Assembly: GCA_903875605.1 (NCBI GenBank)
Contig: CAIQWT010000008.1
Location: forward strand, 62,001-126,000
Direction: 5' to 3'
Source of the DNA: an uncultured Geobacteraceae bacterium
GTDB lineage: Bacteria > Desulfobacterota > Desulfuromonadia > Geobacterales > Pseudopelobacteraceae
DNA: 64,000 bases
Shown here piece by piece: positions 11,158 to 28,779 of this stretch (the first letter of the stretch is position 1; each line of letters starts with the position of its first letter). The notes beneath the pieces were generated by a model, which saw only the letters and a program-made list of their open reading frames with translations, was not told the DNA's origin and searched no databases. A program made the position numbers and the translations under genes.

Positions 11158-12366
11158 CTACTCCTTGATAATCGGAATGATTTTAGCTAAAAATTTACCT
11201 CTGAAGAAACTCCGCAGGCTTTTTTTGATACCGCTGACCACGAATGGTGTCAGCCGTTTTTTTTCTTTGAGGATGCGGAAGTAGAGATCCTTGCGCTTTA
11301 AAGGTGGGATCTGCCAACCAGTAACGGAAATCATTGAAAGCGCGCCCTGTTTACAACTACTGACGCAGGCACCGCAGCCAAGACATATTTTGTCTGCAAC
11401 AACTCCATAACGAGCACTTTTCTGCTCTAACATCATCTCGTTCGGTATGGCTATGGCATTGACGTTACAGGCGCGGAAGCAGGCACCACAACTGTTGCAT
11501 AGCACCGGGTCGATAATGGCGCAGAAGCCGGTCTTGCCAACTCCGTTATGGTAGCCCATATGTACCCCGGCCAGCAGTTCACAGCAGCAGTTGCAGCAGT
11601 TGCAGATAAAGGAAGGTTTGTGACGTATGTTATCGGTTATGTGAGTGAGATTCAGTCCTCTGGCTGTGTCGAGAACAGCCAGCAACTCGTCAACACTCTT
11701 TTCCTCGGCAAAACCACGCCGCGCCATGAAACGGGCGGCACTCCCCAGGGAGATGCAGATCCCATCCACCGGGGCGCCTTTGCCGCAGGTTTCACCCAAA
11801 TGTTCTTTCTTATGACGGCAGTAACACATTCCGACCGCACCGAAGCCGGCATTACGGATGATGGCACGGGCCTGATCATAGGTGGTCACTTCTGAGGTGA
11901 CCGGTATATGCTCTTCATAGAGAAGCGAACGCGTCAGTGGAGTTTTGCTGCCGAAAAATTCACCGGCCTGACTCTCTTCCAGATACTCCCGCATCAGCCG
12001 GGCAAGACGTTCCAAAGGAAGATCACTACGGTTTTTCATAAAAGTGATCTCAAAAAAACCGATCAGACCCGGCAGCAGCAGGTAGTACACAGCACCGGAG
12101 TAGGGCATGTCCATCACCAGACCCTTGTCGGCCATCTTCTCCAGCAACGGCAGCAGCTCCGCTTCAGGAATCTTAGTCAATCCTGTCAGTTCCGGAAGGG
12201 TTGCCTCTTCCAGGGGAAAGCGTGACGCCACAAAGGCTTCCTGCTCATCGAAGAGTAGCACAAGAATCTCGCGGAGTTTGTCGCTGTCCACCAGTCCGAT
12301 CGGGTACTTATTGAGCCGGTCAATCAGTGGGATAATGCTGCTTTTTGAACCAAGGTGATGACCCAT
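11158..12366 (-). CDS. Two-[4Fe-4S] ferredoxin-domain protein with winged-helix-like N-terminus
   Basis: A 402-residue protein. The first about 120 residues resemble a winged-helix fold (IPEAELLPLLEKMADKGLV). Two C-terminal ferredoxin motifs, CNSCGACFRACN and CLGCGACVSSCK, can hold two [4Fe-4S] clusters. A middle region has further cysteines (CYCRHKKEHLGETC and an unusual CNCCNCCCE) that may bind another cluster. The end is basic and amphipathic. It is probably an electron carrier or redox sensor for the acyl-CoA dehydrogenases flanking it (3 bases to the next gene). I know similar proteins near fatty-acid genes in anaerobes but no assigned function. Confidence 0.7.
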   Translation of the reverse strand: MGHHLGSKSSIIPLIDRLNKYPIGLVDSDKLREILVLLFDEQEAFVASRFPLEEATLPELTGLTKIPEAELLPLLEKMADKGLVMDMPYSGAVYYLLLPGLIGFFEITFMKNRSDLPLERLARLMREYLEESQAGEFFGSKTPLTRSLLYEEHIPVTSEVTTYDQARAIIRNAGFGAVGMCYCRHKKEHLGETCGKGAPVDGICISLGSAARFMARRGFAEEKSVDELLAVLDTARGLNLTHITDNIRHKPSFICNCCNCCCELLAGVHMGYHNGVGKTGFCAIIDPVLCNSCGACFRACNVNAIAIPNEMMLEQKSARYGVVADKICLGCGACVSSCKQGALSMISVTGWQIPPLKRKDLYFRILKEKKRLTPFVVSGIKKSLRSFFRGKFLAKIIPIIKE

Positions 12367-12377
12367 ACTACATTCCT

Positions 12378-13154
12378 TCAGTCAAACTTCGAAAAGTCAG
12401 GTGTTCTTCGTTCCATAAACGACTGAAGCGCTTCCTTCGCTTCCGGGGACGAAAGCCGTTCCAGAAAACAGCTGATTTCGAACATGGTCGTTTCCCTTAG
12501 TTGTCCTGTATTTCCCCGTTTCAGAAGCGATTTAGTCAAACGTACTGCAGCAGCTGGCTGTGCCGCCAACTTAAGGGCCTTTGATCGCGCTGTCTGGAGG
12601 AGCATTTGCTGCGGTACTACTGCCGTAACAATTCCCAGCTGTTCGGCCCGGAGTGCGCTGAATGATTCACCAAGCAGCAACAGTTCCGATGCACGCTGGT
12701 GCCCCATTAACTGCGGCATAAGAAGGGTTGATCCCGCTTCAGGGCAAAGTCCCAGGCTAACGAACGGCATCTGAAAACTTGCCGTATCGGCTGCATACAC
12801 CAGGTCACAATGGAGCAGCAGAGTTGTGCCGACACCGACAGCAGAGCCGCTTACTGCGGCTATAATCGGCGTTGCTGCACACGTAATTGCGTTCAGAAAA
12901 CGCAGTACCGGGCTGTCTGGACCGGTTGGCGGGAAGTTGATAAAATCGGCGATATCATTGCCGCTGGTAAAACAGTCATCACAGCCGGTGAGGAGGACCA
13001 CTCGAATGGCAGGATCTTCATCGGCTCGCTGAAGTGCATCAGCAAGTGCACTGTACATAGCTGTGGTGAGGGCATTCTTTTTTTCTGGCCGGTTGATTTT
13101 GACTGTCAGGATTCCGTCTTGCAGATCGGCCAGGATCAGCTCTGATAAACTCAT
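12378..13154 (-). CDS. Enoyl-CoA hydratase/isomerase family protein
   Basis: A 258-residue crotonase-fold protein. Oxyanion-hole segments are GNDIADF (near 66–72) and SGSAVGVGTTLLLHCDLVYA (near 106–125). The general acid/base glutamate is present at PEAGSTLLMPQLMG, but the first catalytic Glu of hydratases is not obvious (position reads GVGTTL). Isomerase or related activity is therefore as likely as hydration. It lies between the thioesterase (3-base gap) and Fe-S protein genes in the beta-oxidation operon, in addition to the hydratase domain in FadN, so it may serve particular substrates such as unsaturated acyl-CoA. Confidence 0.85.
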   Translation of the reverse strand: MSLSELILADLQDGILTVKINRPEKKNALTTAMYSALADALQRADEDPAIRVVLLTGCDDCFTSGNDIADFINFPPTGPDSPVLRFLNAITCAATPIIAAVSGSAVGVGTTLLLHCDLVYAADTASFQMPFVSLGLCPEAGSTLLMPQLMGHQRASELLLLGESFSALRAEQLGIVTAVVPQQMLLQTARSKALKLAAQPAAAVRLTKSLLKRGNTGQLRETTMFEISCFLERLSSPEAKEALQSFMERRTPDFSKFD

Positions 13155-13157
13155 GTT

Positions 13158-13547
13158 TCATTCCCCCAATGTACGGATGCATTCCGGTACCGGCACTGAG
13201 ACTTTTTTGAGATTGTCGAAACAGACCAGCGTTGTGCGGGCAACGGCATAGGTTTTTTCTCTACCGTCGTGGAGTTTATATTCAAGATCAAAGCTGCTGG
13301 TGCCGATTCTGGTAACGACAACAGAAACGATCAATTCGTCACTAAACAGGATTGGAAGCTTGTAATCGCATTCTGCACGAGCTACCAGTGTGAATATCTG
13401 TTTGTCGGTCAGCTCTTTAAAGAAATCCTTGAACAGTTTCACCCGTGCGGTCTCAAGATAGGTAAAATAGACGACGCTGTTTACATGGCCATAAAGATCA
13501 AGATCGGAAAAGCGCAGTTCGATATTGGTGGAGAAGGTTCGTGGCAT
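13158..13547 (-). CDS. Acyl-CoA thioesterase of the 4HBT/YbgC hot-dog family
   Basis: A 129-residue hot-dog protein with the family signature RFSDLDLYGHVNSVVYFTYL near residues 12–31, where the Asp (DLDLYGHVN) is the catalytic residue. Length matches YbgC/FcbC-type thioesterases, which hydrolyse acyl-CoA thioesters. In this operon it may release CoA from stalled intermediates. The substrate cannot be read from sequence. It is 3 bases upstream of the enoyl-CoA hydratase gene and 21 bases after the exported protein gene. Confidence 0.88.
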   Translation of the reverse strand: MPRTFSTNIELRFSDLDLYGHVNSVVYFTYLETARVKLFKDFFKELTDKQIFTLVARAECDYKLPILFSDELIVSVVVTRIGTSSFDLEYKLHDGREKTYAVARTTLVCFDNLKKVSVPVPECIRTLGE

Positions 13548-13568: not shown

Positions 13569-14123
13569 CTAATTCCCGAGCATCCCTTTTTTAAGTGATT
13601 CGTCAGCAGGTTTATCTCCAAGATAGATAGCCAGTACACCCTTTGACAACTTCGTGGAGGATACCGTTCCCAGCACCTTGCCATTATGGCTGGCAGACAC
13701 GCTGCCATCGTTACGGAGGTTAAGGTCAACGGTGTCACCCTTGACAAAATCTGCCGTGAACAGAGCGAGAAATTGTTTGACTTCGGGGGAACCAACAAGA
13801 TCGGGTGAATTATTCGCAAAGCCTTCGCTGAACGCTTCGATGATTTTTTCCTTTTCTACTTTTGAATGTAAAAAGTTCATTCTAATCAATTTATTGCCGG
13901 GATCATGTAAGGCTTCAGCAGCGGTTGGCAGCTTTTTCGTCGCATATAGCGAACCGATGTATACTTTGACAAAGAATTTTTTCCGCATTCCATAACCGTT
14001 TAATTTTAATTGCTGGCTATTAACTGAAACGGCCGGTTCAAGCTGTACTCCGGCGACTTCAACGGCATACGACTGTCCGACGGCAAACAGCATCAGGGCA
14101 AGCGCCATACACAGACTTTTCAT
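13569..14123 (-). CDS. Exported chalcone-isomerase-like domain protein
   Basis: A 184-residue protein with a signal peptide (MKSLCMALALMLFAVGQSYA, cleavage around residue 20). The body, with LNGYGMRKKFFVKVYIGSLY and the later FVKGDTVDL, matches the bacterial periplasmic chalcone-isomerase-like family. This family is a fatty-acid-binding fold without flavonoid activity in bacteria. A periplasmic lipid-binding role would suit a locus that takes up lipids, but no substrate is shown. It sits in the middle of otherwise cytoplasmic beta-oxidation genes, 21–24 bases from its neighbours. Confidence 0.8.
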   Translation of the reverse strand: MKSLCMALALMLFAVGQSYAVEVAGVQLEPAVSVNSQQLKLNGYGMRKKFFVKVYIGSLYATKKLPTAAEALHDPGNKLIRMNFLHSKVEKEKIIEAFSEGFANNSPDLVGSPEVKQFLALFTADFVKGDTVDLNLRNDGSVSASHNGKVLGTVSSTKLSKGVLAIYLGDKPADESLKKGMLGN

Positions 14124-14146: not shown

Positions 14147-16150
14147 TCAGCAGATCTCACGACCGGCTGCAAAACCCTGATGAACAGCATCAAAAACCAT
14201 GGCAGGGCGCAAAGCGTCACCGGCAACCCGGTATGGAATGCCACTGTCGGCCACCATTTCCTGGAGTGGATTGAATGCACGAGTTCCTACTGCAAGAACA
14301 ACGGTGTCAGCCGGTATTTCTTCTGTTCTGCCTTCGCATTCGACCCTGACGCACGTTGCTGTTATTTCTATAACCCGTGCCGTGGCCCGGGTCTTAACAC
14401 CGTACCGCTCTATGTCCTGCAACATGCCCCACCGGGTACTCTTGCCGAAGTTTGTGCCAAATTGGTCCAGCATTTCAATGACGGTAACGTCCCTGCTTCC
14501 TCGTGTTGCCAATCCATAAAGATCTTCGACAGATTCGGCACCATGAACCAGCAGGAATTTGAGCGCCTTGCCGGAAAGAGTGCCCTTCTCTGCGAGCAGC
14601 AAAGCGGTCTCAATTCCAACGGCACCTCCGCCGATGATCACAATGTGCTGACCTGTTACGACCTTTTCTGTCAGGATGTCCCACGCCTGAACAACATGTG
14701 GCAGGTCAGCACCACTTATTGAAGGCGTAATCGGTCGGCCGCCGGTGGAGATAATAATGGCCTCCGGTCGGCTTTCCTGCAAAAACTGTTCATTAACACG
14801 GGAATTCAAAACCACTGCAGCACCTGACAATTTTACCTGCCGCTTAAGATCTTCCGCCAGTTCAAGGAACTCTTCGCGCCCCGGCGGCGCGCCCGCCAGC
14901 AGCAGTTGTCCGCCAAGATGGTTGCTCGCTTCATGGATTGTAACGCAATGTCCACGCTCAGCGGCGGCGATCGCCGCACTCATCCCTGCTGCCCCGCCGC
15001 CGATTACGGTTACCGACAATGGCGTATCGGTTTTAGAAATCGTCCGGGAGCGTTCATAGCCGGCTCGCGGGTTGCAAAGGCATTCAACCGATTTCATCTT
15101 GAACAGGTTGTCGAAGCAGCCCTGGCCACAGGCGACGCAGTGAACGATATCTGCATCATGGCCGCACCTGGCCTTCTCCGGAAAGTAAGGGTCAGCGATC
15201 AGCGCCCGTCCTAGCGCCACCATATCGCAGTAACCGTCAGCTATCATCTCTCTTGCCAGGTCAGGATCATTGATGCGGTGGCTGGCGATAACGGGAATTC
15301 TGATGCGCTCCTTTATTCCGCGAGCCAGGTAACCAAAAACTCCGCGAGGTACTTCGGTAACGATCTGAGGAACTTGCGCCTCGTGCCAGCCGACGTTTAT
15401 ACAGAGGGCATCCACTCCGGCCTTTTCCAGTTGAATTGAGTATTCCTGTAGATCGTGGCGGCTTGAACCACCCTTCATGAATTCATTGCCGTTCATTCTA
15501 ACGAGCAGTGGAAAATCTGCGCCGACCGCCTCGCGAACCGCACTGATAATTTCGAGGCCGAAACGGATGCGCCCCGAAAAATCCCCGCCGTAGCGGTCTT
15601 CCCGCTTGTTAGTGAGCGGTGACATAAATTCACTGATCAGGTAGCCGGTGCCGGACAGGATTTCGACTGCGTCGAAGCCTGCTTTCTTGACACGTTCCGC
15701 AGCCTGGGCAAAGCGAAGTATGATCGTCTCTATCTCTGCAATATCCAGCTCATGTGGTGTCTCACGAGTCAGTCGTGAAGCAATGGGTGAGGGTGCCACC
15801 GGCTGTTTACCGCCAGTCAGCATGGAGTGGTTATAGCGTCCGGCATGATTGAGCTGGACAGAAGAGCGGGCGCCATTATCACGGATAGCAGTTGCCAGAC
15901 GGGTCAAACCGGGGATATGAATATCCTTGTGAGCACCGATGTTCCCGGGGTTGCCGGAAAGTTCATCCACAGTGGCATAGCCGACAGTTATCATCCCTGC
16001 ACCGCCCAGAGCCCGCTCTACGTAGAAATCCACCAATCGGTCATTTACCGCATAATTCCCCGCCATATTCAAATGCATGGCCGGCATGAAGATACGGTTT
16101 TTAACTTCCATCTGGTTGATGATAATGGGTTGAAAAAGCGGATCGATCAT
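14147..16150 (-). CDS. 2,4-dienoyl-CoA reductase-like NADH:flavin oxidoreductase
   Basis: A 667-residue three-domain flavoenzyme. An old-yellow-enzyme TIM barrel comes first (FMN; PLFQPIIINQMEVKNRIFM at the start, then QLNHAGR). A [4Fe-4S] cluster segment follows (CVACGQGCFDN plus ECLCNPRAG near 340–365). A FAD/NAD domain has GGGAAGMSAAIAAAERG and a second dinucleotide motif IIGGGAVGIETALLLAEKG. This is the layout of FadH, which removes double bonds of polyunsaturated acyl-CoA. The start overlaps the upstream metallo-beta-lactamase gene by 4 bases. Function in unsaturated fatty-acid oxidation is inferred from family and place. Related enzymes act on other enoates. Confidence 0.88.
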   Translation of the reverse strand: MIDPLFQPIIINQMEVKNRIFMPAMHLNMAGNYAVNDRLVDFYVERALGGAGMITVGYATVDELSGNPGNIGAHKDIHIPGLTRLATAIRDNGARSSVQLNHAGRYNHSMLTGGKQPVAPSPIASRLTRETPHELDIAEIETIILRFAQAAERVKKAGFDAVEILSGTGYLISEFMSPLTNKREDRYGGDFSGRIRFGLEIISAVREAVGADFPLLVRMNGNEFMKGGSSRHDLQEYSIQLEKAGVDALCINVGWHEAQVPQIVTEVPRGVFGYLARGIKERIRIPVIASHRINDPDLAREMIADGYCDMVALGRALIADPYFPEKARCGHDADIVHCVACGQGCFDNLFKMKSVECLCNPRAGYERSRTISKTDTPLSVTVIGGGAAGMSAAIAAAERGHCVTIHEASNHLGGQLLLAGAPPGREEFLELAEDLKRQVKLSGAAVVLNSRVNEQFLQESRPEAIIISTGGRPITPSISGADLPHVVQAWDILTEKVVTGQHIVIIGGGAVGIETALLLAEKGTLSGKALKFLLVHGAESVEDLYGLATRGSRDVTVIEMLDQFGTNFGKSTRWGMLQDIERYGVKTRATARVIEITATCVRVECEGRTEEIPADTVVLAVGTRAFNPLQEMVADSGIPYRVAGDALRPAMVFDAVHQGFAAGREIC

Positions 16151-17097
16151 GGTGTCTCTCCTGGTGCGACGTCATCGAACTGTTTACGGATCTGATCAAA
16201 CAGGCCGATTTGTACAAGAGAGGCCTTCAGCAGCGCCGGGTTTTCAAGAAAATCCAGCATGAAGACGACCTCAGATACTTTTAGATAAATAAGAAACGGT
16301 TCGGTAATCCTTCTCTTGAAAAGTTGCTCAATAATCTCGTACAGAACCCGCTTTCTCAGTGGCCGGACCTGCCGGGCGCGTTCGAGCAGCGTGGTAACGT
16401 AATAGATAACTGCTTCATCTATTCCATCAACATAAGTGCGATGTCCAGGCATGATTTGAAGCCCTCGCAGCTGTGCAAGGTTGTGTAGTGAGCTGCAGTA
16501 GGCATCATAGTTTCTGAAACGTCCTGTAAAGCTATCCATATCTATATCAAGAAGAGGGGCCTGAAAGATGTTTCTGAGTAGGACGTCACCGGTAACAGCA
16601 AAATTTCCGACCAGATAGGCCAGATCACTCTGCGAATGTCCCGGGCATGGAAGGTAGCTGATGCCAAGTGCCGCCAAATCCTCCGATTCTTCAACAATCC
16701 GAAAACGCTCGGGGGTGGCAGGAAATATTTTGTTGCGCTCAAAGGATTCCTGCAGTAGAGACGTAAAATCGCTGCCGAAGCCATACGCGGTCAATAATTC
16801 ACCCATACGTGCCATTCGTTCGGAGTGACGCTGAAGTTTGATGGCATCCCGGCGGGGAATGAACACTTCAGCATTGCTGTGCCGAATGATATAATTTGCC
16901 AAGCCGTAATGATCGACATGGCAATGGGTGATGAAAAGGTATTTCAAACGTGAGAAATCTATCTGGTCCTTCAGGCACGCTTCACCTTCAGGTGTGGGTG
17001 GTCCGGAGTCGAACAGCACAAGATCACCGTTAAGTTCAGTGCTGTAAAAGTGGACTTCTCCCACCATGTATGGAGTTTGAACAGTGTGCTGGCGCAT
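16147..17097 (-). CDS. Metallo-beta-lactamase-fold hydrolase
   Basis: A 316-residue protein with the metal-binding motif THCHVDHYG near residues 56–64, the second-sphere GHSQSDLAY (His) and the later PGHRTYVDG. It belongs to the MBL-fold hydrolases related to glyoxalase II. A likely task beside beta-oxidation enzymes is thioester hydrolysis, but nothing in the sequence fixes the substrate. It overlaps the next gene by 4 bases and is 2 bases from fadE upstream, so it is firmly co-translated with this pathway. Confidence 0.85.
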   Translation of the reverse strand: MRQHTVQTPYMVGEVHFYSTELNGDLVLFDSGPPTPEGEACLKDQIDFSRLKYLFITHCHVDHYGLANYIIRHSNAEVFIPRRDAIKLQRHSERMARMGELLTAYGFGSDFTSLLQESFERNKIFPATPERFRIVEESEDLAALGISYLPCPGHSQSDLAYLVGNFAVTGDVLLRNIFQAPLLDIDMDSFTGRFRNYDAYCSSLHNLAQLRGLQIMPGHRTYVDGIDEAVIYYVTTLLERARQVRPLRKRVLYEIIEQLFKRRITEPFLIYLKVSEVVFMLDFLENPALLKASLVQIGLFDQIRKQFDDVAPGETP

Positions 17098-17099
17098 GG

Positions 17100-18878
17100 T
17101 TAAAAAATATACTTCTCTGTCTCAAGCGCAGCCATTGCTAATTGACGTTTTGCTTTTAGCAGGCCGGTGGCATCGTATTTTGTAAATCTGCGTATGCCGG
17201 CTAACAGCATGGTCAGCGTATCTCCCTCCTCAATATAGAAGGCTGCGCGGCGCGCGGCAGAGGCCGCTTTTTCGGTGCCATTGAATGTGAATACCTTTAC
17301 TGCGGCACTTACGGAGGCCTTTTTGCTCTCGCTAAGTTTCGGCAGTATTTTGTCGGCGCGCAGCACAACACTTTCTATGGCAAAAATATTGATCGCCAGG
17401 TCTGCCACTGCGAGCAGAATTTCCTGCTCGTCCTTGATTGTATCCATAAACTTTTGTACTCCGGTGCCGGCCAGTACGAGAAAAGCCTGCTTCAGACTGG
17501 CTATCAGAGCCTTCTCTGCAGCAAATGGAACTGTATCATCCAATTCCTCAAACGATGGAGACATGAGTGATTCAAATGCTTTCATCGCCTCTTTCTGGAG
17601 CGGTATTTCGCCCTTCATGGCGCGCCGGAGAATAATCCCGGGGATCAGCAGTCGGTTTATCTCGTTGGTACCCTCCCAAATCCGGTTGATCCGCTCGTCG
17701 CGATAGTACGACTCTGCAGCATATTCCTGTATGAAGCCGTAACCGCCGTGAATCTGAACAACCGAATCTGCGACATCAGCCAGAATCTCACTACACAGCA
17801 CCTTGACGATGGCGCATTCTACTGAATACTCCTCGATGCCCCGCTGATAAGTTTCGTAGTAGTCAGGCGTACCTTTCGGTACGGTGGCAAGGCGATAATC
17901 TATCAAGCCGGCCAGGCGGTATACGACTGATTCGGATGCAAAGATGGCAGCACTCATATCCGCGATCTTTTCCTGAATAGCCCCGAAGGTCCCGATCGTC
18001 ACGCCGAAAGCTTTGCGCTCGTTGGCATATTTGATGCCGGTGGTCAGTGCCGTTTTTGCAGCACCAGTGGCTCCGGCGCCCAGCTTGAAACGGCCGACAT
18101 TGAGGACATTAAAGGCAATTTTGTGCCCTTTGCCGATCTCGCCCAGCAGGTTTTCAGCCGGTACCCTGGCATCCTCCAGGATTATCTGGGTGGTTGACGA
18201 CCCCCTGACTCCCATCTTGTTTTCTTCCGGTCCGACGCTCAGCCCTTCAGTCTCCCGCTCCACAAGAAATGCAGTGAAGTGCTGCTTGTCAATTTTCGCA
18301 AAGACGGTGTAGAGATTAGCTATACCGCCATTGGTGATGAACTGTTTGGTGCCATTGAGAAGATAATACTTTCCGTCGGCGGAGAGGGTGGCCGTAGCCG
18401 TAGCGCCCAGCGCATCGCTGCCGGAACCCGGTTCGGTCAGGCAATAGGCTGCAATCCATTCACCGGAGATGATTCGGTGCAGATATCGCTCTTTCTGCTC
18501 TTTTGTCCCGTAATAAACCAGTGGAAGCGTACCAATACCGGTGTGGGCGGAGTAGGTTACCGAAAAAGACCCGGCCTGTGACAGCTTTTCCGCAGCCAGC
18601 ATACTGGTGGCTTTGTCCAACTCAAGTCCACCATACTCTTCGGGGGCATCAATCATCAATAAGCCCAATTCGCCGCATTTTTTCATCAATTCAACCGTCA
18701 GCGGCAGATTGTGTTTTTCTATCTCTTCGCGATGCGGCATAACCTCGTTAATGACAAATTGCTCGGTTGTATCGCCAATCTGACGCTGCTCAGCATTGAA
18801 GTCCTCTGGCGTAAAGATGTCATTTCTGTCTGCCTCGGTTATAAGATATTCGGCACCTTTAAATAGTTTTGCGGCCAT
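17100..18878 (-). CDS. fadE: Long acyl-CoA dehydrogenase (FadE type)
   Basis: A 592-residue acyl-CoA dehydrogenase whose length matches Bacillus FadE-type enzymes with a C-terminal extension. Visible elements: AYCLTEPGSGSDALG (FAD/substrate loop, about 143–157), the helix GRFKLGAGATGAAKTAL, the FAD contact QIHGGYGFIQEYAAE, then YRDERINRIWEGTNEINR. The catalytic Glu is expected in the last of these. It catalyses the first oxidation of acyl-CoA. Together with the upstream thiolase and bifunctional gene it reproduces the fadN–fadA–fadE order. A strong GC-rich hairpin lies between it and the thiolase gene. Confidence 0.92.
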   Translation of the reverse strand: MAAKLFKGAEYLITEADRNDIFTPEDFNAEQRQIGDTTEQFVINEVMPHREEIEKHNLPLTVELMKKCGELGLLMIDAPEEYGGLELDKATSMLAAEKLSQAGSFSVTYSAHTGIGTLPLVYYGTKEQKERYLHRIISGEWIAAYCLTEPGSGSDALGATATATLSADGKYYLLNGTKQFITNGGIANLYTVFAKIDKQHFTAFLVERETEGLSVGPEENKMGVRGSSTTQIILEDARVPAENLLGEIGKGHKIAFNVLNVGRFKLGAGATGAAKTALTTGIKYANERKAFGVTIGTFGAIQEKIADMSAAIFASESVVYRLAGLIDYRLATVPKGTPDYYETYQRGIEEYSVECAIVKVLCSEILADVADSVVQIHGGYGFIQEYAAESYYRDERINRIWEGTNEINRLLIPGIILRRAMKGEIPLQKEAMKAFESLMSPSFEELDDTVPFAAEKALIASLKQAFLVLAGTGVQKFMDTIKDEQEILLAVADLAINIFAIESVVLRADKILPKLSESKKASVSAAVKVFTFNGTEKAASAARRAAFYIEEGDTLTMLLAGIRRFTKYDATGLLKAKRQLAMAALETEKYIF

Positions 18879-18975: not shown

Positions 18976-20148
18976 TTACATCTTCTCAAAAATGCCAGCA
19001 GCCCCCATACCCCCACCAATGCACATAGACACCATGCCGTAGCGGGTATCGGTACGCTGCATTTCCTGCAAGAGGCTTGCGGTCAGCTTGGCTCCGGTAC
19101 ATCCGAGCGGGTGCCCTAGAGCGATGGCTCCGCCATTGACGTTTACCCGTGTCGGGTCAATTCCCAACTCCTTGACACAGGCGAGTGATTGCGCCGCAAA
19201 AGCCTCGTTCAGTTCAATAAGTCCTATCTCCTCCAGGGTTAAGCCGGCCAGCTTTAATGCAGCAGGAATTGCGGCTACCGGGCCGATACCCATCAGCTCC
19301 GGTGGTACTCCTTTAACGGCAAATGCGACGAAACGAGCCAGTGCTTTTTTACCGGTTTTTTTCAGAAAATCTTCGGATACAACAAGTACAGCAGCGGCTC
19401 CGTCAGTCATCTGAGAGGCGTTTCCAGCGGTAACCGTACCGGTAGTCTTGAAGGCAGGTTTCAGCTTGCTCAGCCCGGCAGTGGTTGTGTCACTACGCAC
19501 GCCGTCGTCGCTGTCAACCAGACCGGTACTCCTCTTCATCTTTCCGTTTATCAGTGCGCAGCTTTCGATTTCCATTGGAATGATTTCTTCTTTAAATTTA
19601 CCGGCCGCAATAGCCGCAGCGGCCTTTTTGTGACTTGCCGCGGCAAAAGCATCCTGCTCTTCGCGGGTAATGCCATATTTGTCTGCAACCAGTTCGGCGG
19701 TTATTCCCATTGAGGCAAAGGCCTCCGGCCAGTTGGCCATGAGGGAAGGGTTGGCGCTGTATTTGCTCCCACCCATCGGAATCATACTCATGCTCTCGGC
19801 GCCACCGGCAATTATACAGTCGGCAAAGCCGGCCATGATTCGTTCCGCGGCTGAAGCTATGGTCTGCAAGCCGGAAGAGCAGAATCGATTGATGGTCTGG
19901 GCCGGTACTTCAACCGGTACTCCGGCTTTCATCGCCGCTACCCGTGCAAAATTCATCCCCTGCTCCCCTTCAGGGAAGGCACAGCCGATAATGATATCTT
20001 CGACATCGTGCGGGTCTATTCCCGTCCTGGACAGCAGACCCTTAATGGCCGCGGCAGCCAGATCGTCCGGACGGACATCTTTTAACTTCCCTTTTTTTGC
20101 ACGGCAACCGGGGGTGCGGTAGGCTGCCAAAATATATGCGTTTCTCAT
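18976..20148 (-). CDS. fadA: Acetyl-CoA acyltransferase (3-ketoacyl-CoA thiolase)
   Basis: A 390-residue thiolase. The nucleophilic Cys is in NRFCSSGLQ (near 86–94). The C-terminal catalytic His is in GGAIALGHPLGCTGAKL and the second Cys in MVSMCIGGGMGAAGIFE. It cleaves 3-ketoacyl-CoA to acetyl-CoA and a shortened acyl-CoA. It follows fadN by 51 bases and has RBS GGAGG before the start. Length and motifs are those of FadA-type, not biosynthetic, thiolases. Confidence 0.95.
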   Translation of the reverse strand: MRNAYILAAYRTPGCRAKKGKLKDVRPDDLAAAAIKGLLSRTGIDPHDVEDIIIGCAFPEGEQGMNFARVAAMKAGVPVEVPAQTINRFCSSGLQTIASAAERIMAGFADCIIAGGAESMSMIPMGGSKYSANPSLMANWPEAFASMGITAELVADKYGITREEQDAFAAASHKKAAAAIAAGKFKEEIIPMEIESCALINGKMKRSTGLVDSDDGVRSDTTTAGLSKLKPAFKTTGTVTAGNASQMTDGAAAVLVVSEDFLKKTGKKALARFVAFAVKGVPPELMGIGPVAAIPAALKLAGLTLEEIGLIELNEAFAAQSLACVKELGIDPTRVNVNGGAIALGHPLGCTGAKLTASLLQEMQRTDTRYGMVSMCIGGGMGAAGIFEKM

Positions 20149-20199: not shown

Positions 20200-22587
20200 T
20201 TAATTGCGCAGCGGTTTACCCTTCTTAAGCATATGCTGAATACGCTCCAGAGTTTTTTTCTGTCCGCAGAGGCGGACAAATGCTTCCCGCTCCAGATCCA
20301 GCAGATAATCCTCGGTGATCAGGGTGCCGGCCGGTACATCTCCGCCGGTGATAACATCGGCAACCACTCCGGCCAGGTACTGGTCATACTCCGAGATGAA
20401 GCCACCTTTTTGCATATTCCAAAGCTGTGACTTAATACTGGCGGCCATACTGCGACCTGGTGCCTTCAAATCGGTCAGCGCTCGTCCAGGTCTGTAGTTG
20501 GCAGCCAGTGATATCGCCTTCAGTTTGGCATCATGAATGCGCGTGTCGATATCCATGGAGATGGCATCCCCCTGGCGCATGAACCCCATCGCCGACAATT
20601 CAGCTGCCGACATACTGACCTTGGCCATGGCTATGTTCATGTAATTTTTGAAGATGAACGGGGTTGCGTCCATGTCATATTCCTCGGCCAGCTTGATGGC
20701 GCGTACTGCCATCTCCTTGGTGCCGCCACCAGCGGGCAGCAGGCCTACTCCAAGTTCAACCAGTCCCATATAGGTCTCGGCGTGGGGGATTATTGCGTCT
20801 GAGTGGAGGCAGGTTTCGCAGCCGCCGCCCATTACCAGATTGTGCGGAGCGGCCACGACGGGTATTTTAGAGTATTTAATCGCCATCATCGCTTTTTGGA
20901 AACTCTTGACCGTCATATTGATTTCGTCGAACGCACCTTCAGCGATAGCCATTACCAGTAGCATCAGGTTGGCACCGGCAGAGAACATATTCCCTTCATT
21001 GGCAATTACCAGGCCGACACCCTCCTCTTCAGTCCGCTTGATGGCTTTATGGACCATGGAAAGGATTTCGCCTCCGATGGCATTCATCTTGGTATGAAAT
21101 TCAAGACAAAACACACCGTCTCCCAGATCGATCACGGAGGCGCCGCTGTTCTTTTCCACTTCATTATTGTTTTTCTTGAGGATAGTGAGGCTGATGTGCC
21201 CCTGTTTCTGTGGCACTTCGCAATATTTGCCATCTAATATACTGTAGTAGTAAGTGCAGCCGTTTTCGAATTTATAGAACTGCTCGATAGTTTTAAGTCC
21301 GGCTGGAACATGCACGCCGTCTTTTTCAGCCCGTGCGACAAAGTAGGTGACGCCTATTGCGTCCAACATCTCAAACGGTCCGAGTTCCCAGTTGAAGCCC
21401 CATTTCATTGCATTATCTATGTTGACGATGTCATCGGCTATTTCAGGAATCCGGTTGAAGGTATAGATCAGAGTATCGCGCAGGTTGGTCCAGGCAAAAC
21501 GGGCCGCCTTGTCGTCGGCGTTAATAAGAGCTTTGAGACGTTTGGCCGGGTCATCAATTGCTTTAGCAGCTTCAATAGAGGCAAATTTGGGGCGTTGTGA
21601 GGGCACATAGTCGCCGGTCGTGTAGTCGTAATAGAAGAACTCCTGCCCCTTTTCACTTTTTATTTTCTTAAAGAAGCCCTGCCTGCTTTTGTTGCCCAAC
21701 AGCCCTTTGGACACCATTTCAGCCACAAACCCAGGGAACTTGAAGATGTCGCGCTGCTCGTCATTGACGAGCAGTTCATAGGAGTTTTTTGCTACGTGCT
21801 GAAGCGTGTCGATGCCGACAAGGTCTGCAGTGCGAAAGGCGGCGCTTTTAGGACGAGCCGTTGCCGGACCTGCCACGGCATCCACCTCCTCGACGGTCAT
21901 GCCTGTCTCCATCATGGTGCGGACGCAGTTGCAGATGGCGTAGACGCCGATGCGGTTGGCGATGAAGTTGGGAGTGTCCTTGGCGTAGACGATCCCCTTG
22001 CCGAGCCGCCTGGAAATAAAATCGGCTATACAGGCGGTGACTGCAGGGTCGGTTGAGCTGCAGGGAACAATTTCCAACAGGCGCATATAGCGCGGAGGGT
22101 TGAAAAAATGCGTAACCAGGAAGTTTTTCCGGACATTCTCCGGGAGGCATTCTGCCATCTCATTGACGGAAAGACCGCTGGTGTTGGTCGAAAGGATTGC
22201 TCCCTCCTTAAGATTGGGCATGATCTTTTCTGTAAAGAGCTGCTTCTTGATCGCCATGTTTTCAATGACGACCTCGATTACCCAGTCACATTCCTTAAGT
22301 GCGGGCATGTCGTCTTCAAAGTTACCAACTTCGATATTGGCTGCATAGCCCGGCAGAAAGAATGGCGCTGGTTTCATCTTTAACAGACCGTCTCTGCCGG
22401 AGGTGGCAATACGGTTACGCACTTTACTGTCTGCGATAGTGAGCCCGGCGGCTGCTTCAGAATCGTCAGTTTTCCGTGGTACGATATCGAGTAGAAGCAC
22501 CCGGACTCCGGCATTGGCGAGATGTGCGGCGATGGTTGCACCCATTACACCTGCTCCAAGCACTGCCACTTTGCTGATCTGTTTCAT
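20200..22587 (-). CDS. fadN: Bifunctional 3-hydroxyacyl-CoA dehydrogenase / enoyl-CoA hydratase (FadN type)
   Basis: A 795-residue fusion with the dehydrogenase first: NAD-binding GAGVMGATIAAHLANAG at residues 11–27, then STNTSGLSVNEM and THFFNPPRYMRLLEIVP. A crotonase-type hydratase domain lies in the last third (MFSAGANL, then VVAAPHNLVMGGGCETCLHS). This order is opposite to E. coli FadB and matches Bacillus FadN. It performs the two central steps of beta-oxidation. It follows fadD by 28 bases and precedes the thiolase, as in fadNAE operons. Confidence 0.95.
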   Translation of the reverse strand: MKQISKVAVLGAGVMGATIAAHLANAGVRVLLLDIVPRKTDDSEAAAGLTIADSKVRNRIATSGRDGLLKMKPAPFFLPGYAANIEVGNFEDDMPALKECDWVIEVVIENMAIKKQLFTEKIMPNLKEGAILSTNTSGLSVNEMAECLPENVRKNFLVTHFFNPPRYMRLLEIVPCSSTDPAVTACIADFISRRLGKGIVYAKDTPNFIANRIGVYAICNCVRTMMETGMTVEEVDAVAGPATARPKSAAFRTADLVGIDTLQHVAKNSYELLVNDEQRDIFKFPGFVAEMVSKGLLGNKSRQGFFKKIKSEKGQEFFYYDYTTGDYVPSQRPKFASIEAAKAIDDPAKRLKALINADDKAARFAWTNLRDTLIYTFNRIPEIADDIVNIDNAMKWGFNWELGPFEMLDAIGVTYFVARAEKDGVHVPAGLKTIEQFYKFENGCTYYYSILDGKYCEVPQKQGHISLTILKKNNNEVEKNSGASVIDLGDGVFCLEFHTKMNAIGGEILSMVHKAIKRTEEEGVGLVIANEGNMFSAGANLMLLVMAIAEGAFDEINMTVKSFQKAMMAIKYSKIPVVAAPHNLVMGGGCETCLHSDAIIPHAETYMGLVELGVGLLPAGGGTKEMAVRAIKLAEEYDMDATPFIFKNYMNIAMAKVSMSAAELSAMGFMRQGDAISMDIDTRIHDAKLKAISLAANYRPGRALTDLKAPGRSMAASIKSQLWNMQKGGFISEYDQYLAGVVADVITGGDVPAGTLITEDYLLDLEREAFVRLCGQKKTLERIQHMLKKGKPLRN

Positions 22588-22615: not shown

Positions 22616-24427
22616 TTAATTGCTGTGATCAATGTACAGATCTTCTAACCGGTGTTTGTATTTCTCATAAATAATCTTGCGTCGAAGCTTCAGTGTCGGG
22701 GTCAATTCTCCACCCTCGATGGAGAAGTCGTGGGCTATCAGAACAAATTTCTTGATCGTTTCATAGGGCGCTAGATTGCTGTTGATGTCAGCCAGTCTCT
22801 GTTCAAAAAGCTTTTGCACCGGTTCGTGCATGACAAGATCGTCCAGCTCGTAGTAGTGAATATGCTTTTCTTTGGCAAATTCCAGCAGGCGTTCCAGGTT
22901 CGGAACAATCAAGGCGGTAAGATACGGCTTGCGATCTCCATACACAAAAGCGGATGTAACGTACTTGTCCATCTTGAGAGCGTTTTCTATCGGCTGTGGT
23001 GCAATGTTTTTACCGGCAGCGGTAATAATCAGCTCTTTTTTACGGTCTGTAATAAAAACGAAGCCGTCAGTAATACGTCCGATATCTCCGGTCTTGAACC
23101 AACCGTCCTGAATTGCCTCAGCGGTGGCGACCGGATCATTGTAGTAGCCGAGCATGATCTGCGGCCCTCTCACAAGAATTTCACCATCTTCCGCAATTTT
23201 GAATTCCGTCTCCTCCAGGGCAAACCCCACCGAGCCGAAGCAAATATGCTTGAAGTTATTGAAACTAAGTGCCGGGCTTGTCTCGGTCAATCCATATCCT
23301 TCAAAAATAGGGATGCCGATAACCCAGAAAAATTCATTTATGGTTTTGTCCAGCGGGGCGCCACCTGAACAAAACAATTTCATGTTACCACCGAAGCGCG
23401 CTCTTATTTTGCTGAAGATTATCCGGTCGGCCATTGCGTATTTCAGATTGAGCAGAGTCGAAGGGTTCTTATCTATATACGTCGCCGCCACATATTTTTT
23501 GCCGACATCCACAGCCCAGTTGAAAATGGACCTTTTGACAGCTGACATCTGATGTGCATTCTCAAAAATACGGTGATAAATTTTTTCGAACAGACGCGGC
23601 ACACAGACCATCACAGTAGGACGTATTTCGAGCATATTTTCAGGAACTTTTTCAATGCTGTCAGCAAATGTCATCAAGGCGCCGTTACGAATAGTCATGT
23701 AATATCCGGCGGTCCTCTCCAGAATGTGGCTCAAGGGGAGGAAACTCAGCAAGACGTCGTTTTTGTCGATGGCGTCGCTCTGTTCGGTTAGATATTGAGT
23801 GTTTGTCAGGATGTTGTTATGCGACAGCATGACCCCTTTTGGCACTCCGGTTGTGCCGGATGTATATATAAGTGTCAGCATATTGCCTGGATCTATCCGG
23901 TCTATTTCCGCTTCCAGATCTATTTTCTCATTATCACTAATGGGCGAATCAATCTCGGAAAGCTGGTAGAAGGTGGTGACCGGCAACCCTTGCTCGCCAA
24001 TAAAGCGCTCGAATGAAACAACCAACTCCAGCCTCGGAAGCGCCTCTCTGACCTTTAAAAGCTTTGTGTATTGGAACTTTCCTGAGACAAAGACGATTCT
24101 AGCTCCGGAATGGTTGATCATGTATTCTATCTGCTCAGGGGTGTTGGTTGGATATATTGGTACGGTAACGCATCTGGCACACAAAATCCCCATGTCGGCA
24201 ATGACCCACCCGGCGCGGTTCTCTGAAAGTATTGCAATCCTGTCGCCAGGTTTAACTCCCATTTTCCCAAGCCCTCTGGCAGCCATAAGCGCTCGCTCAT
24301 AGTAATCGGCATATGTCAGAGTAACAAATGCGCCTTGCTTGCGATATTTGAGGGCCAGTCTGGAGCTGAATTCATTTGCATTACTCCTGAGCATGTCTGG
24401 TACAGAGCGGTATCTTGGATTGCTCAT
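22616..24427 (-). CDS. fadD: Long-chain-fatty-acid–CoA ligase (AMP-forming)
   Basis: Start placed at ATG 24427, with GGAGG 7 bases upstream; an upstream in-frame start would add 10 residues without such a site. The 603-residue product has the P-loop LIYTSGTTGVPKGVMLSHNN, the motif GYGLTETSPALSF, and the hinge GWFKTGDIG followed by ITDRKKELIITAAGKN. These are hallmarks of long-chain acyl-CoA synthetases. It activates fatty acids arriving through FadL. It is the first gene of the eleven-gene operon, and its promoter is overlapped by a perfect palindrome (24464–24489). Confidence 0.95.
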   Translation of the reverse strand: MSNPRYRSVPDMLRSNANEFSSRLALKYRKQGAFVTLTYADYYERALMAARGLGKMGVKPGDRIAILSENRAGWVIADMGILCARCVTVPIYPTNTPEQIEYMINHSGARIVFVSGKFQYTKLLKVREALPRLELVVSFERFIGEQGLPVTTFYQLSEIDSPISDNEKIDLEAEIDRIDPGNMLTLIYTSGTTGVPKGVMLSHNNILTNTQYLTEQSDAIDKNDVLLSFLPLSHILERTAGYYMTIRNGALMTFADSIEKVPENMLEIRPTVMVCVPRLFEKIYHRIFENAHQMSAVKRSIFNWAVDVGKKYVAATYIDKNPSTLLNLKYAMADRIIFSKIRARFGGNMKLFCSGGAPLDKTINEFFWVIGIPIFEGYGLTETSPALSFNNFKHICFGSVGFALEETEFKIAEDGEILVRGPQIMLGYYNDPVATAEAIQDGWFKTGDIGRITDGFVFITDRKKELIITAAGKNIAPQPIENALKMDKYVTSAFVYGDRKPYLTALIVPNLERLLEFAKEKHIHYYELDDLVMHEPVQKLFEQRLADINSNLAPYETIKKFVLIAHDFSIEGGELTPTLKLRRKIIYEKYKHRLEDLYIDHSN

Positions 24428-24463
24428 GCTTTCACCTCCGGAATTCTTTTGTATCAAGCTATA

Positions 24464-24489
24464 TATACTTGACCTTCATGTCAAGTATA
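24464..24489 (-). promoter_or_regulatory. Palindromic operator overlapping the fadD-operon promoter
   Basis: TATACTTGAC (24464–24473), spacer CTTCAT, GTCAAGTATA (24480–24489): a perfect 10-bp inverted repeat 37 bases before fadD. On the minus strand TTGACA inside it can serve as −35, with TATATAGC downstream as −10, so a bound repressor would block RNA polymerase. The regulator is not encoded nearby. TetR-type FadR/PsrA-like control is a reasonable guess. Confidence 0.7.
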
Positions 24490-24808
24490 ATTTTATTCTA
24501 TTTTCGCCACTATTCGGAACATATCAAAAAAATATACCAGTTATTTTTCATGTCGCAACGGCAGACAATACTTTTGCTCTACTCCAATTTCTGATTCAGT
24601 AAAAATGACGTTTACAAAACGCTATCAATCAGGAGTTTTTTAAAATATTCGCTGCCACCCAATGTATTAAAGCGCTGAAAACGTCACAACTGCTTGATAA
24701 CAGTGAAATGTGTTGTTGGTGCCGATCTGGATAGTTTTTCCTGACTTAACGACTTTAATCCGGAATAACGAGGGATAATATTTTATTCAAATATGGGATA
24801 TTTAGTCA
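24490..24808. other. Divergent intergenic region between fadD and fadL
   Basis: A/T-rich and without a supportable gene or structured RNA. It separates the two operator-like sites. The fadL leader 24825–25012 is also long and contains no gene I would defend. Confidence 0.5.
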
Positions 24809-24824
24809 TTGACATGCGTGTTAA
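24809..24824 (+). promoter_or_regulatory. Second operator-like site at the fadL promoter
   Basis: TTGAC-ATGCGT-GTTAA has the same half-site and 6-base spacer as the fadD palindrome, with one mismatch in the dyad. TTGACA here is also a good −35 for rightward transcription; the −10 is less clear (TAGTTT 17 bases on). It suggests joint control of both directions. Confidence 0.5.
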
Positions 24825-25012
24825 GGTGGCATAGTTTGTCAAAAAACAATGTTATAAAATAAAAACAGTATTATGGCGGAACGTTTACTGTGGAAATGGA
24901 CAGGTCAAAATGCACACTTGAAAGGGGCGTGCTCGAGTCAAGAGTCATTATGGATGAATTTATGGATGTACGTCCAGCGAAGTTCAGAAAACCTAAGGAA
25001 AGGAGTTTTGAA

Positions 25013-26359
25013 ATGAAAAACAAACTGGTTCTCGCGTGTATTTTGTCTACTCTGGCAGGGACAGCTTCTCTGGCAGTTGCGGCAGGGCTTAAAGTGAATG
25101 AGCAGGGCGCAAAGGCCATGGCGATGGGGAATGCCTTTACCGCACAGGCGGATGACCCCTCGGCACTCTTTTATAATCCTGCCGGGATTGCATTCCTCAA
25201 GGGAAGTCAAGTTAATCTCGGTTCGACGACAATTTATGTGCCCTCTACCGAGTTTAATGGCACTGCTCCGCTCAGTGGCAACGCGCCACTCGGTGTCGGC
25301 AGTACCTCAATATCAGAAAAGGCCAAGAATGATATTTTTATTGCTCCGGCTTTTTATGCAACACACTCTTTTGAAGGCATGCCGATTTCAGTCGGGCTTG
25401 CGGTAAACGCCATTTATCCTTTGGCTAAAAGCTGGGATGACAGTAGCGCATTTCGTGCCGAAATTATGAACATCGCAGTCAAGCCGATAAATTTTCAACC
25501 AACAGTTGCTTACCGCATCGATGATTGGAATCTTTCGGTTGCTGCCGGACTCGATATTACCCATGCCATAGTAACTCTGCAAAGGATGGCCTACTCTCCG
25601 GATGCGTCCGTACCCAATTCGGCCTATGAACTCGGCAGCATGGGGCTTGATGGTACTGCTACCGACGTTGGCTACAATGTTGGTCTAAAATGGAAGCCGG
25701 TGCCAAGCATCTCTTTTGGTGCTGCGTACCGGAGTGAAATTGATCTGAAAATTAAGGGTGATGCTAACTTTCTTGCGACGACTCCCGCTGGTTTTAACAT
25801 TCTCGGGATGACTACCGGTGCAACTTCTCCCTACTCTCGAACACGTGCATCTTCCACAGTCTCAACTACAATTGTGCTCCCTGCAAGTCTGGGCCTCGGC
25901 GTTGCCTGGCAACCGACAGAAAAGCTTACGCTTGAAGTAGACGGCGAGTGGACCGGTTGGAGTTCAATGAAAAAACTGGAATTCCAATTTGATGGCCCGC
26001 AATTTGCCAACTTTAATAACAAACCAAAACCACTTAACTGGCAAGATGTCTGGTGTTACAAGGTTGGGGGTCAATATGCGCTGACAAAAAATCTGGATCT
26101 GCGTGCCGGTTACATGTTCGACAAGAATCCCGTGCCGGACTCAACTCTCGGTCCGGTCCTGCCGGATGCCGACCGCCACAGCTTCAGTATCGGTCAAGGA
26201 ATTCATAATGATCAGTACTCGCTTGATCTTGCCTATATGTGGACACATTTTGTCGATAGAACAGTGAGCAACCAGAACATGGCAGAAATGACTGGCGCAA
26301 ATGGTACCTACAAGAGCGATGTTCACCTCTTTGGGGGCTCAATCACCGTCAAGTTTTAA
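25013..26359 (+). CDS. fadL: FadL/OmpP1-family outer-membrane long-chain fatty-acid transporter
   Basis: ATG 25013 follows AAGGAG by 8 bases and opens a signal peptide (MKNKLVLACILSTLAGTASL, cleavage near AVA-AG). The 448-residue protein has the family N-terminal motif KAMAMGNAFTAQADDPSALF and NPAGIAFLKG, which forms the lumenal plug with an NPA signature. Alternating beta-strands follow to a terminal aromatic (ITVKF). It should carry fatty acids across the outer membrane. It is divergent from the fadD operon and followed by the surface lipase gene, so substrate release and uptake are coupled. Confidence 0.95.
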   Translation: MKNKLVLACILSTLAGTASLAVAAGLKVNEQGAKAMAMGNAFTAQADDPSALFYNPAGIAFLKGSQVNLGSTTIYVPSTEFNGTAPLSGNAPLGVGSTSISEKAKNDIFIAPAFYATHSFEGMPISVGLAVNAIYPLAKSWDDSSAFRAEIMNIAVKPINFQPTVAYRIDDWNLSVAAGLDITHAIVTLQRMAYSPDASVPNSAYELGSMGLDGTATDVGYNVGLKWKPVPSISFGAAYRSEIDLKIKGDANFLATTPAGFNILGMTTGATSPYSRTRASSTVSTTIVLPASLGLGVAWQPTEKLTLEVDGEWTGWSSMKKLEFQFDGPQFANFNNKPKPLNWQDVWCYKVGGQYALTKNLDLRAGYMFDKNPVPDSTLGPVLPDADRHSFSIGQGIHNDQYSLDLAYMWTHFVDRTVSNQNMAEMTGANGTYKSDVHLFGGSITVKF

Positions 26360-26403
26360 CGCTATTCCTTCCAACATTAATTTATACAATGAGAGGTAAT
26401 GCC

Positions 26404-28779
26404 ATGAATACACGTATTATACGACTTTTATTATATCTCAGCTTCATACTGGTGACAGGTTGCTCCGGCACTGATCCGTCTGGAACTAACAATCCTAATA
26501 ACTCCAGTGGAAATTCGGTGATCTTTAACCCATCTACCGGAGAGATCCCTTTGCCAAACATTCTTGCGACCGCTACTGCCAAAAGCCCACTGACGAATAC
26601 AATGGCGGCAAGCGGTACTGTCGTTCGCCTCCCAAATAAGCCGATGACACCACCTGAAGCACTGTCATATATAAACTACTACGAAGTCGGTTCTACCAGC
26701 GCTGTGTCAGGCGTAAATGCACCTGTCTACATCAGGTTCAGCAGCCCGGTTGATGCAGCTACTGTGACTGCCGCCAATATCAAGGTGTTTCAGATTACAG
26801 CCGACTCAGCCAGCCCATCAGCAACAGAGAACAGTCCTCTAGGTTTTACGGATGTAACCGGGATGTTCACGCTCAAGTACAGCGCAGGCAGTACAGACCT
26901 TTTCATGTTCCCAAATTTCCCGATGTCTCCTGCCACCCGGTATCTCTACGTCGTAAGCAACCGGGTGAAGGATGCCGCCTCCGGCAATCCGGTTGTCAGC
27001 TCTTCTTATTTTGATATTCTTAAATCCACATTTCCGCTTGTCGGTGCGTTCGCCGGCCTGGAACCGATTCGTGCCAATGCCATGAGCGGAGCTAGCATCA
27101 AACTTTCCGGGTATGCCAAAGTGATGGACGATCTGATTACTGCGTCAGCAACAACGACAATTACGAGCCGCGATAATATTGCTCTTATGGGACGATTTAT
27201 AACCACCGGGGCGGGTTTTGTATCAAAAGACGCCATTGGAACCACGATGCCGGTTGAAAGTGCCCTGCGCTCTTTCGCTGCAGGGTCGGCATTGGGTGGC
27301 CTGACAGGAAAGACCTGGACAAACGAGGTAACAGTCACGACACCGACGGGACTTACCCCTGCCGCGTATTGGACAGTGGCGACCGGTTCCACAGCAACTC
27401 TTCCAGGCACAGTGGCAAGCGTTGTAACAGGCACAATAAACAGCGCACAGCTTTCGATGGATCCGGTAGTGACCAAGGCAAATGCAGCTGTTGTCGGTGG
27501 CGATCTTTCTTCGCCGGTCGTTGGTGCCTATAACCCCGCTGCCGGAGTATTGCAGCCATTTCGTGACGGAACCGGAGCACTGACCAGCTATTATCATACG
27601 CCCCTCTCCGTTCCGTTTGTTCTTATGACGTCGACAACTCCGTCCGGAAAAGTAGTTATATTCCAACACGGTATTACCGGTCAGAAAGAGCAGATATTAG
27701 CGGTTGCCGGATCTCTTACTGCTGCCGGTTACACAGTGGTCGCGATTGATCTCCCGCTTCATGGTGCACTGGCTGTCCCGACACATACAACCGGGGCTGT
27801 CTGGGGTCAGGACTTCATGGCTGTTGGCGCACCATTGGCAACTCGCACCAACATACAGCAGGGTGCATTCAACCTGAACAGACTTGAGCTTACCATGATA
27901 ACAGGTGGTTTTGCGGCTCAGAGAATTATACCGGCTCCTGCGGTGGATATTAAATATGTAGGAATCAGCCTTGGTTCTATTGTGGGGACATACTACCTGG
28001 CAGGTAATACCACTCTTTCCACAACCGGTTCACCTTACACACAGACTACTCTGAATAGTGACATGAAAGGTTTCCTCAGTGTTCCTGGTGGGCGCACCGC
28101 ATATTTACTGCAGAACAGCCCCGCATTCGGTCCAGGTATTAACGCAGGATTGTCAGCGGTTGGGATCGTCGCAGGAACACCAACCTACAACAATTTTTTC
28201 CAGGTAACCCAGAGCGTTGTAGATTCGGTTGATCCGGCGACAATGACCTCTCCACTCGCATCAGGTCTTCCCTCACGTCTTTCGGGTCGTATTGCTGTTC
28301 AGGAAGCAGTGGGTGATCAGGTCATTCCTAACGAAAACACCAGATATTTTGGCAATGCTCTGGGAGGGCGCGGAATATTAAATTCAGCCGCTGCTCTTGC
28401 GGTGGCACCGGGATTCAGTCAGCTTAAATATCTTGACGGCACCCTTCCGGCCTTAGTTATGTACACTCGTACGGGCGGCGTTGTCGATGGCGCTCCAGCG
28501 GCTAAAACAGATTTTGCTAGAGCCCTGAGTGTGGCTGGTTCTACTCCATCAGAGGGATATTTCCAGTTCAGCCAAACTGGTATAGGGCACGGTTTCTTAA
28601 TCGACAACAGCACTCCTGCAAATACAGTGCTTGCCCAGACCCAGATGGTGGCGTTCCTGCTTAAAGGCGTGGTTGTAGATCCGACAACGGCTGGCCCGTT
28701 GGCCAAAACGGTGTCCATCGCTCCTTCAATGGCGCAGGAAATTCTGCTACCACCAATAGTTAAAATACTCGGATATTAA
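26404..28779 (+). CDS. VolA/Pla-1-type lipoprotein lipase
   Basis: ATG 26404 (GAGAGG upstream) starts a lipoprotein signal, FILVTGC, with Cys about residue 19. The 791-residue mature protein is Ser/Thr/Gly-rich, with an Ig-like region (VYIRFSSPVDAATVTAANIK) and an alpha/beta-hydrolase domain. The latter has an oxyanion segment VIFQHGITGQKEQ, the nucleophile elbow GISLGS near residue 523 and a C-terminal His in GIGHGFLID. VolA, a surface lysophospholipase of Vibrio, is likewise encoded beside fadL. It probably releases fatty acids from external phospholipid or triglyceride. The family is assigned from layout and motif, not from a search. Confidence 0.85.
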   Translation: MNTRIIRLLLYLSFILVTGCSGTDPSGTNNPNNSSGNSVIFNPSTGEIPLPNILATATAKSPLTNTMAASGTVVRLPNKPMTPPEALSYINYYEVGSTSAVSGVNAPVYIRFSSPVDAATVTAANIKVFQITADSASPSATENSPLGFTDVTGMFTLKYSAGSTDLFMFPNFPMSPATRYLYVVSNRVKDAASGNPVVSSSYFDILKSTFPLVGAFAGLEPIRANAMSGASIKLSGYAKVMDDLITASATTTITSRDNIALMGRFITTGAGFVSKDAIGTTMPVESALRSFAAGSALGGLTGKTWTNEVTVTTPTGLTPAAYWTVATGSTATLPGTVASVVTGTINSAQLSMDPVVTKANAAVVGGDLSSPVVGAYNPAAGVLQPFRDGTGALTSYYHTPLSVPFVLMTSTTPSGKVVIFQHGITGQKEQILAVAGSLTAAGYTVVAIDLPLHGALAVPTHTTGAVWGQDFMAVGAPLATRTNIQQGAFNLNRLELTMITGGFAAQRIIPAPAVDIKYVGISLGSIVGTYYLAGNTTLSTTGSPYTQTTLNSDMKGFLSVPGGRTAYLLQNSPAFGPGINAGLSAVGIVAGTPTYNNFFQVTQSVVDSVDPATMTSPLASGLPSRLSGRIAVQEAVGDQVIPNENTRYFGNALGGRGILNSAAALAVAPGFSQLKYLDGTLPALVMYTRTGGVVDGAPAAKTDFARALSVAGSTPSEGYFQFSQTGIGHGFLIDNSTPANTVLAQTQMVAFLLKGVVVDPTTAGPLAKTVSIAPSMAQEILLPPIVKILGY

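Follow-up and report, generated by a model that had tools for sequence, protein, structure and literature searches.

The region between the divergent fadD and fadL genes of this Geobacteraceae genome carries two palindromes that are probably, at a likelihood of about 80%, the operators of one MerR-family repressor, which would be encoded outside the window (the whole 64,000-nucleotide stretch analysed here) and would also control etfD-etfB. A sequence-only reading of this DNA had predicted that a single regulator, encoded elsewhere, serves both the oxidation operon and the uptake genes. The same motif at fadD and fadL agrees with this prediction, as do a MerR profile search of the window, which gave no match, and a MerR-family candidate on another contig.

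We infer that the MerR protein binds the sites, represses from them and answers to a ligand; what the analysis shows directly is the sites themselves, their conservation and register, the regulon, the co-occurrence and linkage of the genes, and the predicted fold. In this scenario, a MerR dimer would sit on a 22-bp palindrome (TACTTGACATGCATGTCAAGTA) that includes the -35 hexamer, and would block RNA polymerase at three promoters, those of the 11-gene fad operon, of fadL with the lipase-like gene, and of etfD-etfB, probably with weak self-repression of merR via a site that covers the merR Shine-Dalgarno sequence. In the presence of fatty acids, a ligand, which would most probably be a long-chain acyl-CoA made by FadD, would release the MerR protein, so that the breakdown and uptake of lipids would be induced together with their oxidation and with the transfer of electrons to quinone. 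Naming fatty acyl-CoA as the inducer is a guess that draws only on pathway logic.

More tentatively, and at somewhat less than even odds, the candidate may represent a new MerR branch that controls how Geobacter relatives use long-chain fatty acids, as a plain promoter-blocking repressor that ties lipase, uptake and beta-oxidation to the EtfD electron outlet in one small regulon. Paralogs of the same branch, encoded beside a branched-chain transporter cluster and an acetate-permease-like gene, would then serve other acid or acyl-CoA pathways. If true, the missing switch for lipid use in metal-reducing anaerobic Geobacter relatives would get a name, and the role of the MerR protein would account for the co-regulation of the electron outlet EtfD with beta-oxidation.

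Operators between fadD and fadL

The genes leading away from the intergenic region are given in Table 1. On one side they make up a putative 11-gene oxidation operon, which supports the operon that had been drawn from the sequence alone; on the other side, fadL is followed by a lipase-like gene, and this arrangement suggests that lipids may be cleaved outside the cell ahead of uptake. The fadL start is most likely an ATG with a Shine-Dalgarno sequence, the open reading frame being listed from a GTG at 24890. A chalcone isomerase-like gene sits within the beta-oxidation operon.

Table 1. Genes, promoters and operators of the fad region, in window positions
Feature	Position	Strand	Evidence
Acyl-CoA dehydrogenase-like protein, last gene of putative operon	9457..11154	-	PF00441; 237-bp gap to next gene
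4Fe-4S protein	11158..12366	-	PF12838
Enoyl-CoA hydratase	12378..13154	-	PF00378
YbgC/FadM-like acyl-CoA thioesterase	13158..13547	-	TIGR00051 56.2 bits, under cut-off 68.7
Chalcone isomerase-like protein	13569..14123	-	PF16036
2,4-dienoyl-CoA reductase-like flavoenzyme	14147..16150	-	PF00724 and PF07992
Metallo-beta-lactamase-fold protein	16147..17097	-	PF00753
fadE, acyl-CoA dehydrogenase	17100..18878	-	NF058590 845.7 bits, above cut-off
fadA, thiolase	18976..20148	-	PF00108
fadB-like 3-hydroxyacyl-CoA dehydrogenase / enoyl-CoA hydratase	20200..22587	-	PF02737, PF00378
fadD, long-chain acyl-CoA synthetase, first gene of oxidation operon	22616..24427	-	PF00501 E=4.9e-80; start ATG 24427
fadD promoter -10, TAGCTT, 17 bp from -35	24456..24461	-	TA with a 17-bp spacer in all 30 genomes (TAnnnT: 87%)
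fadD operator, TATACTTGAC-N6-GTCAAGTATA	24464..24489	.	29.1 bits; kept in 30/30 genomes
fadD promoter -35, TTGACA, identical with one half-site	24479..24484	-	TTGACA in 30/30 genomes
fadL operator, TCATTGACATGCGTGTTAAGGT	24806..24827	.	26.1 bits; kept in 30/30 genomes
fadL promoter -35, TTGACA, identical with one half-site	24809..24814	+	TTGACA in 30/30 genomes
fadL promoter -10, TAGTTT, 17 bp from -35	24832..24837	+	TA with a 17-bp spacer in 87% of the 30 genomes
fadL-type outer-membrane transporter (most likely start at 25013)	25013..26359	+	PF03349 E=6.2e-67
Distant VolA/Pla-1 lipase relative, 796 aa, 30 bp after fadL	26389..28779	+	TIGR03502 139.8 bits, under cut-off 383.9

The site at fadD is a perfect palindrome with 10-bp arms, TATACTTGAC-CTTCAT-GTCAAGTATA (that is, TATACTTGACCTTCATGTCAAGTATA). 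It is the single match to the long pattern in the window at up to three mismatches, and 100 shuffles gave none. A second copy, TTGACATGCGTGTTAA at 24809-24824, differs by one mismatch from TTGAC-N6-GTCAA. Both the perfect long palindrome and the weaker fadL copy had been pointed out before, and both are confirmed. The short core is common by chance (5 matches in the window vs 2.0 expected, not significant), so the significance of the sites comes from their long arms and their conservation.

FadD homologs occur in 62 of the 147 related genomes, and the fadD/fadL intergenic region was read at 30 loci (L013-L042), this genome included. Both operators lie at matching positions throughout, with the form ACTTGACATGAACGTYAAGT about 60 bp upstream of fadD and CCTTRACGYNCATGTCAAGAA on the fadL side, so that conservation upstream of fadD in relatives, on which the sequence-only reading had been staked, is complete among the genomes read. 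A 22-bp matrix built from these 60 sites (30 genomes, two sites each) and run over the window recovers the two sites, both of which belong to its training set, and gives the next best position 6.3 bits; about 0.006 chance matches at or above 26 bits are expected in 3.58 Mb.

The two sites are separate operators, one per promoter, and not the one shared operator first proposed, since the left half-site is the -35 in each promoter. The spacing between them is 340 bp in this genome and 153-362 bp in relatives; given this variation, looping is unlikely to need a fixed phase.

Promoter register

The register TTGACA-N17-TA is constant across the fadD, fadL and etfD operons. At the etfD promoters the left half-site is an exact TTGACA in 9 of 10, and a TA stands at the -10 with a 17-bp spacer in 100%. 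The proposed placement over the -35 of fadL is thus borne out, and a half-site that coincides with the -35 in all three operons is well suited to blocking polymerase.

One half-site is the -35 consensus and the short core is frequent by chance, and the palindrome might on these grounds be a promoter feature only, a -35 hexamer with an accidental inverted copy. We find this scarcely credible. The right half-site (GTYAAG, within the spacer) comes close to the -35 in conservation, with 1.8 bits at most positions, and no promoter element accounts for it. Moreover, a site with this symmetry is found again at etfD; genomes that lack merR either have no such site there or have a decayed one.

The register also bears on how a MerR protein would act. 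In classical MerR activator promoters, which have 19-20 bp spacers, the middle of the site is 7-8 bp away from the 3' end of the -35 (PMC5045206). This geometry is found at none of the fadD, fadL and etfD promoters, where the operator centre and the -35 are about 2.5 bp apart and the spacer has 17 bp, which indicates that the putative regulator represses by covering the -35 rather than by classical activation. The same protein could instead be a classical activator that untwists an over-long spacer, as its MerR fold and the activators CadR and CueR among its closest solved relatives would allow. However, the geometry of three operons and a MerR protein without cysteine make this quite unlikely, and we favour the repressor that covers the -35.

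Sites elsewhere in the genome and in relatives

Pattern searches of this genome found three strong sites, those at fadD and fadL and a third, outside the training set, at L084:5950 (28.3 bits), with everything else that was scored at or below 13.6 bits. The third site precedes a gene for a 661-aa protein with four-iron and cysteine-rich domains, followed by etfB. We take this protein to be EtfD by its architecture and neighbourhood rather than by a family cut-off. Its gene lies on another contig than fadD and merR. In relatives, further sites stand before etfD, sometimes between etfD and a divergent merR (L085, L086, L087, L091), and near thiolase genes (L101, L102). A strong site before etfD-etfB that is repeated in relatives shows that the etf targets, which a matrix scan had been predicted to bring out, were rightly foreseen. 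One motif at 26-29 bits is common to the fadD operon, the fadL operon and etfD, as would be expected of a fatty-acid degradation regulon with uptake, activation and beta-oxidation genes.

The exact core TTGAC-N6-GTCAA has 9 sites across the genome vs 8 for a reversed control pattern, and no link to fatty-acid genes was seen at the four loci read (L002, L003, L005, L007), so the short core is uninformative. The candidates at C9:3002, C17:81187, C32:37570, C60:25585, C61:319 and C78:15413 were set aside with at most 13.6 bits or scores under threshold. A perfect TTTGACATTAATGTCAAA at L002:1500-1517, near an integrase-like gene, falls outside the regulon by matrix score.

Candidate regulators

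The regulator families compared for the sites were TetR and MerR. TetR proteins bind palindromes of such size, and three TetR genes are present in the genome (L010, L011, L012). They are also common fad-gene repressors, FadP in betaproteobacteria among them (PMC5343134). A TetR-family repressor (FadR-, PsrA- or FadP-like) at these sites, as the sequence-only reading had expected, is nevertheless very improbable. All three genes were rejected by the phyletic test, as none tracks fadD in the genus (co-occurrence p=1, 0.34 and 0.49). None of the three has a strong site nearby, and FadP is reported for betaproteobacteria only (PMC5343134). The L011 gene has a different palindrome of its own, TAGACTAAATAGTCTA, at the gene start (L011:1675-1722), and homologs in 11 of the 147 relatives.

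The MerR candidate that we prefer is a 132-aa protein encoded at G000:C81:42163-42558 (L138:6164-6562), on another contig than fadD. It is the ortholog (85% identical) of the MerR protein beside the etfD-side site in relatives; that site adjoins a MerR-family gene in G017, G098, G122 and G127. The MerR domains PF13411 (E=5.9e-18), PF00376 and PF09278 all score above cut-off, with an N-terminal HTH and a DNA-binding domain. The AlphaFold2 model (pLDDT 86) has a winged HTH and then a long dimer helix (85-127), and its best Foldseek matches are CadR, MtaN and CueR on DNA.

The merR leader has a possible site of its own. In 35/35 merR leaders the T, T, A and C of a TTRAC half-site at -18 to -14 are invariant, the right half of the site overlaps the Shine-Dalgarno sequence, and a separate TTGACA lies upstream, again in 35/35. 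The copy in this genome scores only 12.7 bits, and we therefore regard it as a weak, putative site.

Beside merR, L138:2373-5959 encodes a PlsC-type acyltransferase, a GDPD and a 716-aa acyltransferase and alpha/beta hydrolase; the same lipid-handling cluster is found next to an operator in G005 and in G061 as well.

Two MerR paralogs are encoded on contig G000:C109. The first (L166:5264-5695, 40% identical) and an acetate-permease-like gene are divergently oriented, and the stretch between the two contains TTGACATGCACGTAAA (L166:5883-5898), which nearly matches the operator motif. The second (L165:5812-6228) stands by a cluster for branched-chain amino-acid ABC transport and part of an acyl-CoA synthetase gene.

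Comparison with known systems

Known regulators of fatty-acid degradation belong mainly to the GntR (FadR) and TetR (PsrA, FadP) families. A search of the open literature, subscription papers and RegPrecise lying outside it, found no paper on a MerR-family protein that regulates fatty-acid oxidation in Geobacter relatives. FadP and PsrA likewise control fatty-acid degradation genes via palindromic operators, but they are proteins of the TetR fold (PMC5343134; PMC13104628), and no TetR gene here tracks the fad genes.

Compared by description, the system resembles that of LiuR, which is reported to be a MerR-family protein that represses Ile/Leu/Val catabolism in proteobacteria (PMC3223726, PMC5343134), in that a MerR-family repressor would govern acyl-CoA catabolic genes in a similar kind of regulon. 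The strong sites that the pattern searches found here lie instead at genes for the uptake and beta-oxidation of long-chain fatty acids and for electron transfer. Plasmid searches for LiuR returned CadR-like and metal regulators, and no LiuR.

CadR, CueR and PbrR provide the closest solved structures and the best NCBIfam scores for the MerR candidate, and these metal-responsive activators of the MerR family have 21-22 bp sites (PMC5045206). The candidate, however, falls far below the NCBIfam cut-offs, the best TIGR02047 score of merR orthologs being about 85 bits vs a cut-off of 151, and the product in this genome has no cysteine, so that it does not qualify as a metal sensor of the CadR/CueR/ZntR kind. 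The 17-bp spacer and the operator on the -35 set it further apart.

Co-occurrence and linkage of merR, fadD and the operators

Within the genus, merR is present in 21/21 genomes with fadD and in 2/18 without it (21 both, 0 fadD only, 2 merR only, 16 neither; Fisher p=4e-9, kinship ignored). One genome without fadD, G013, has merR and a site before etfD. A strong etfD operator is found in 9/12 genomes with merR, the others being G007 and G008, which have no good etfD site, and G030, which has a 13.3-bit site only. The etfD operator is absent in 8/8 genomes without merR, though the etfD gene remains; in one of these, G023, a decayed form of it, TGCTTGATATGCACGTTTCGTA, stands upstream of etfD exactly where the operator would be (L247). 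On the EtfD tree, well-supported branches require the presence of merR to switch at least 2 times, and the best tree has 6 switches. Each time merR changes together with fadD, no switch runs in the opposite direction, and the operator contradicts none of them. This is suggestive, and not significant by sign test.

A regulator of another family could bind the sites, with merR merely travelling with the fad genes. Physical linkage of fadD and merR in many genomes makes joint gain and loss possible, and G068 (99% complete) keeps fadD and the sites, with no merR ortholog found. We consider this explanation unlikely. In this genome merR and fadD persist on different contigs, and the operators at etfD, which lies on yet another contig here, are missing in genomes without merR. 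The leader of merR itself also carries the half-site. These points argue for the MerR protein as the regulator.

Several relatives have merR on the fadD contig, about 15-20 kb downstream of this gene. No merR ortholog was found in G090, G093 and G124, whose fadD contigs end before its usual place. MerR proteins of about 50% identity occur on the fadD contig in four genomes from other families of the class, and in each of these genomes fadD is preceded by a weaker relative of the site (18.6-19.9 bits). The named carriers of merR are the culturable Geobacter argillaceus, Geomonas species, including the culturable Geomonas sp. Red32, and MAGs of Geobacteraceae and Desulfuromonadaceae.
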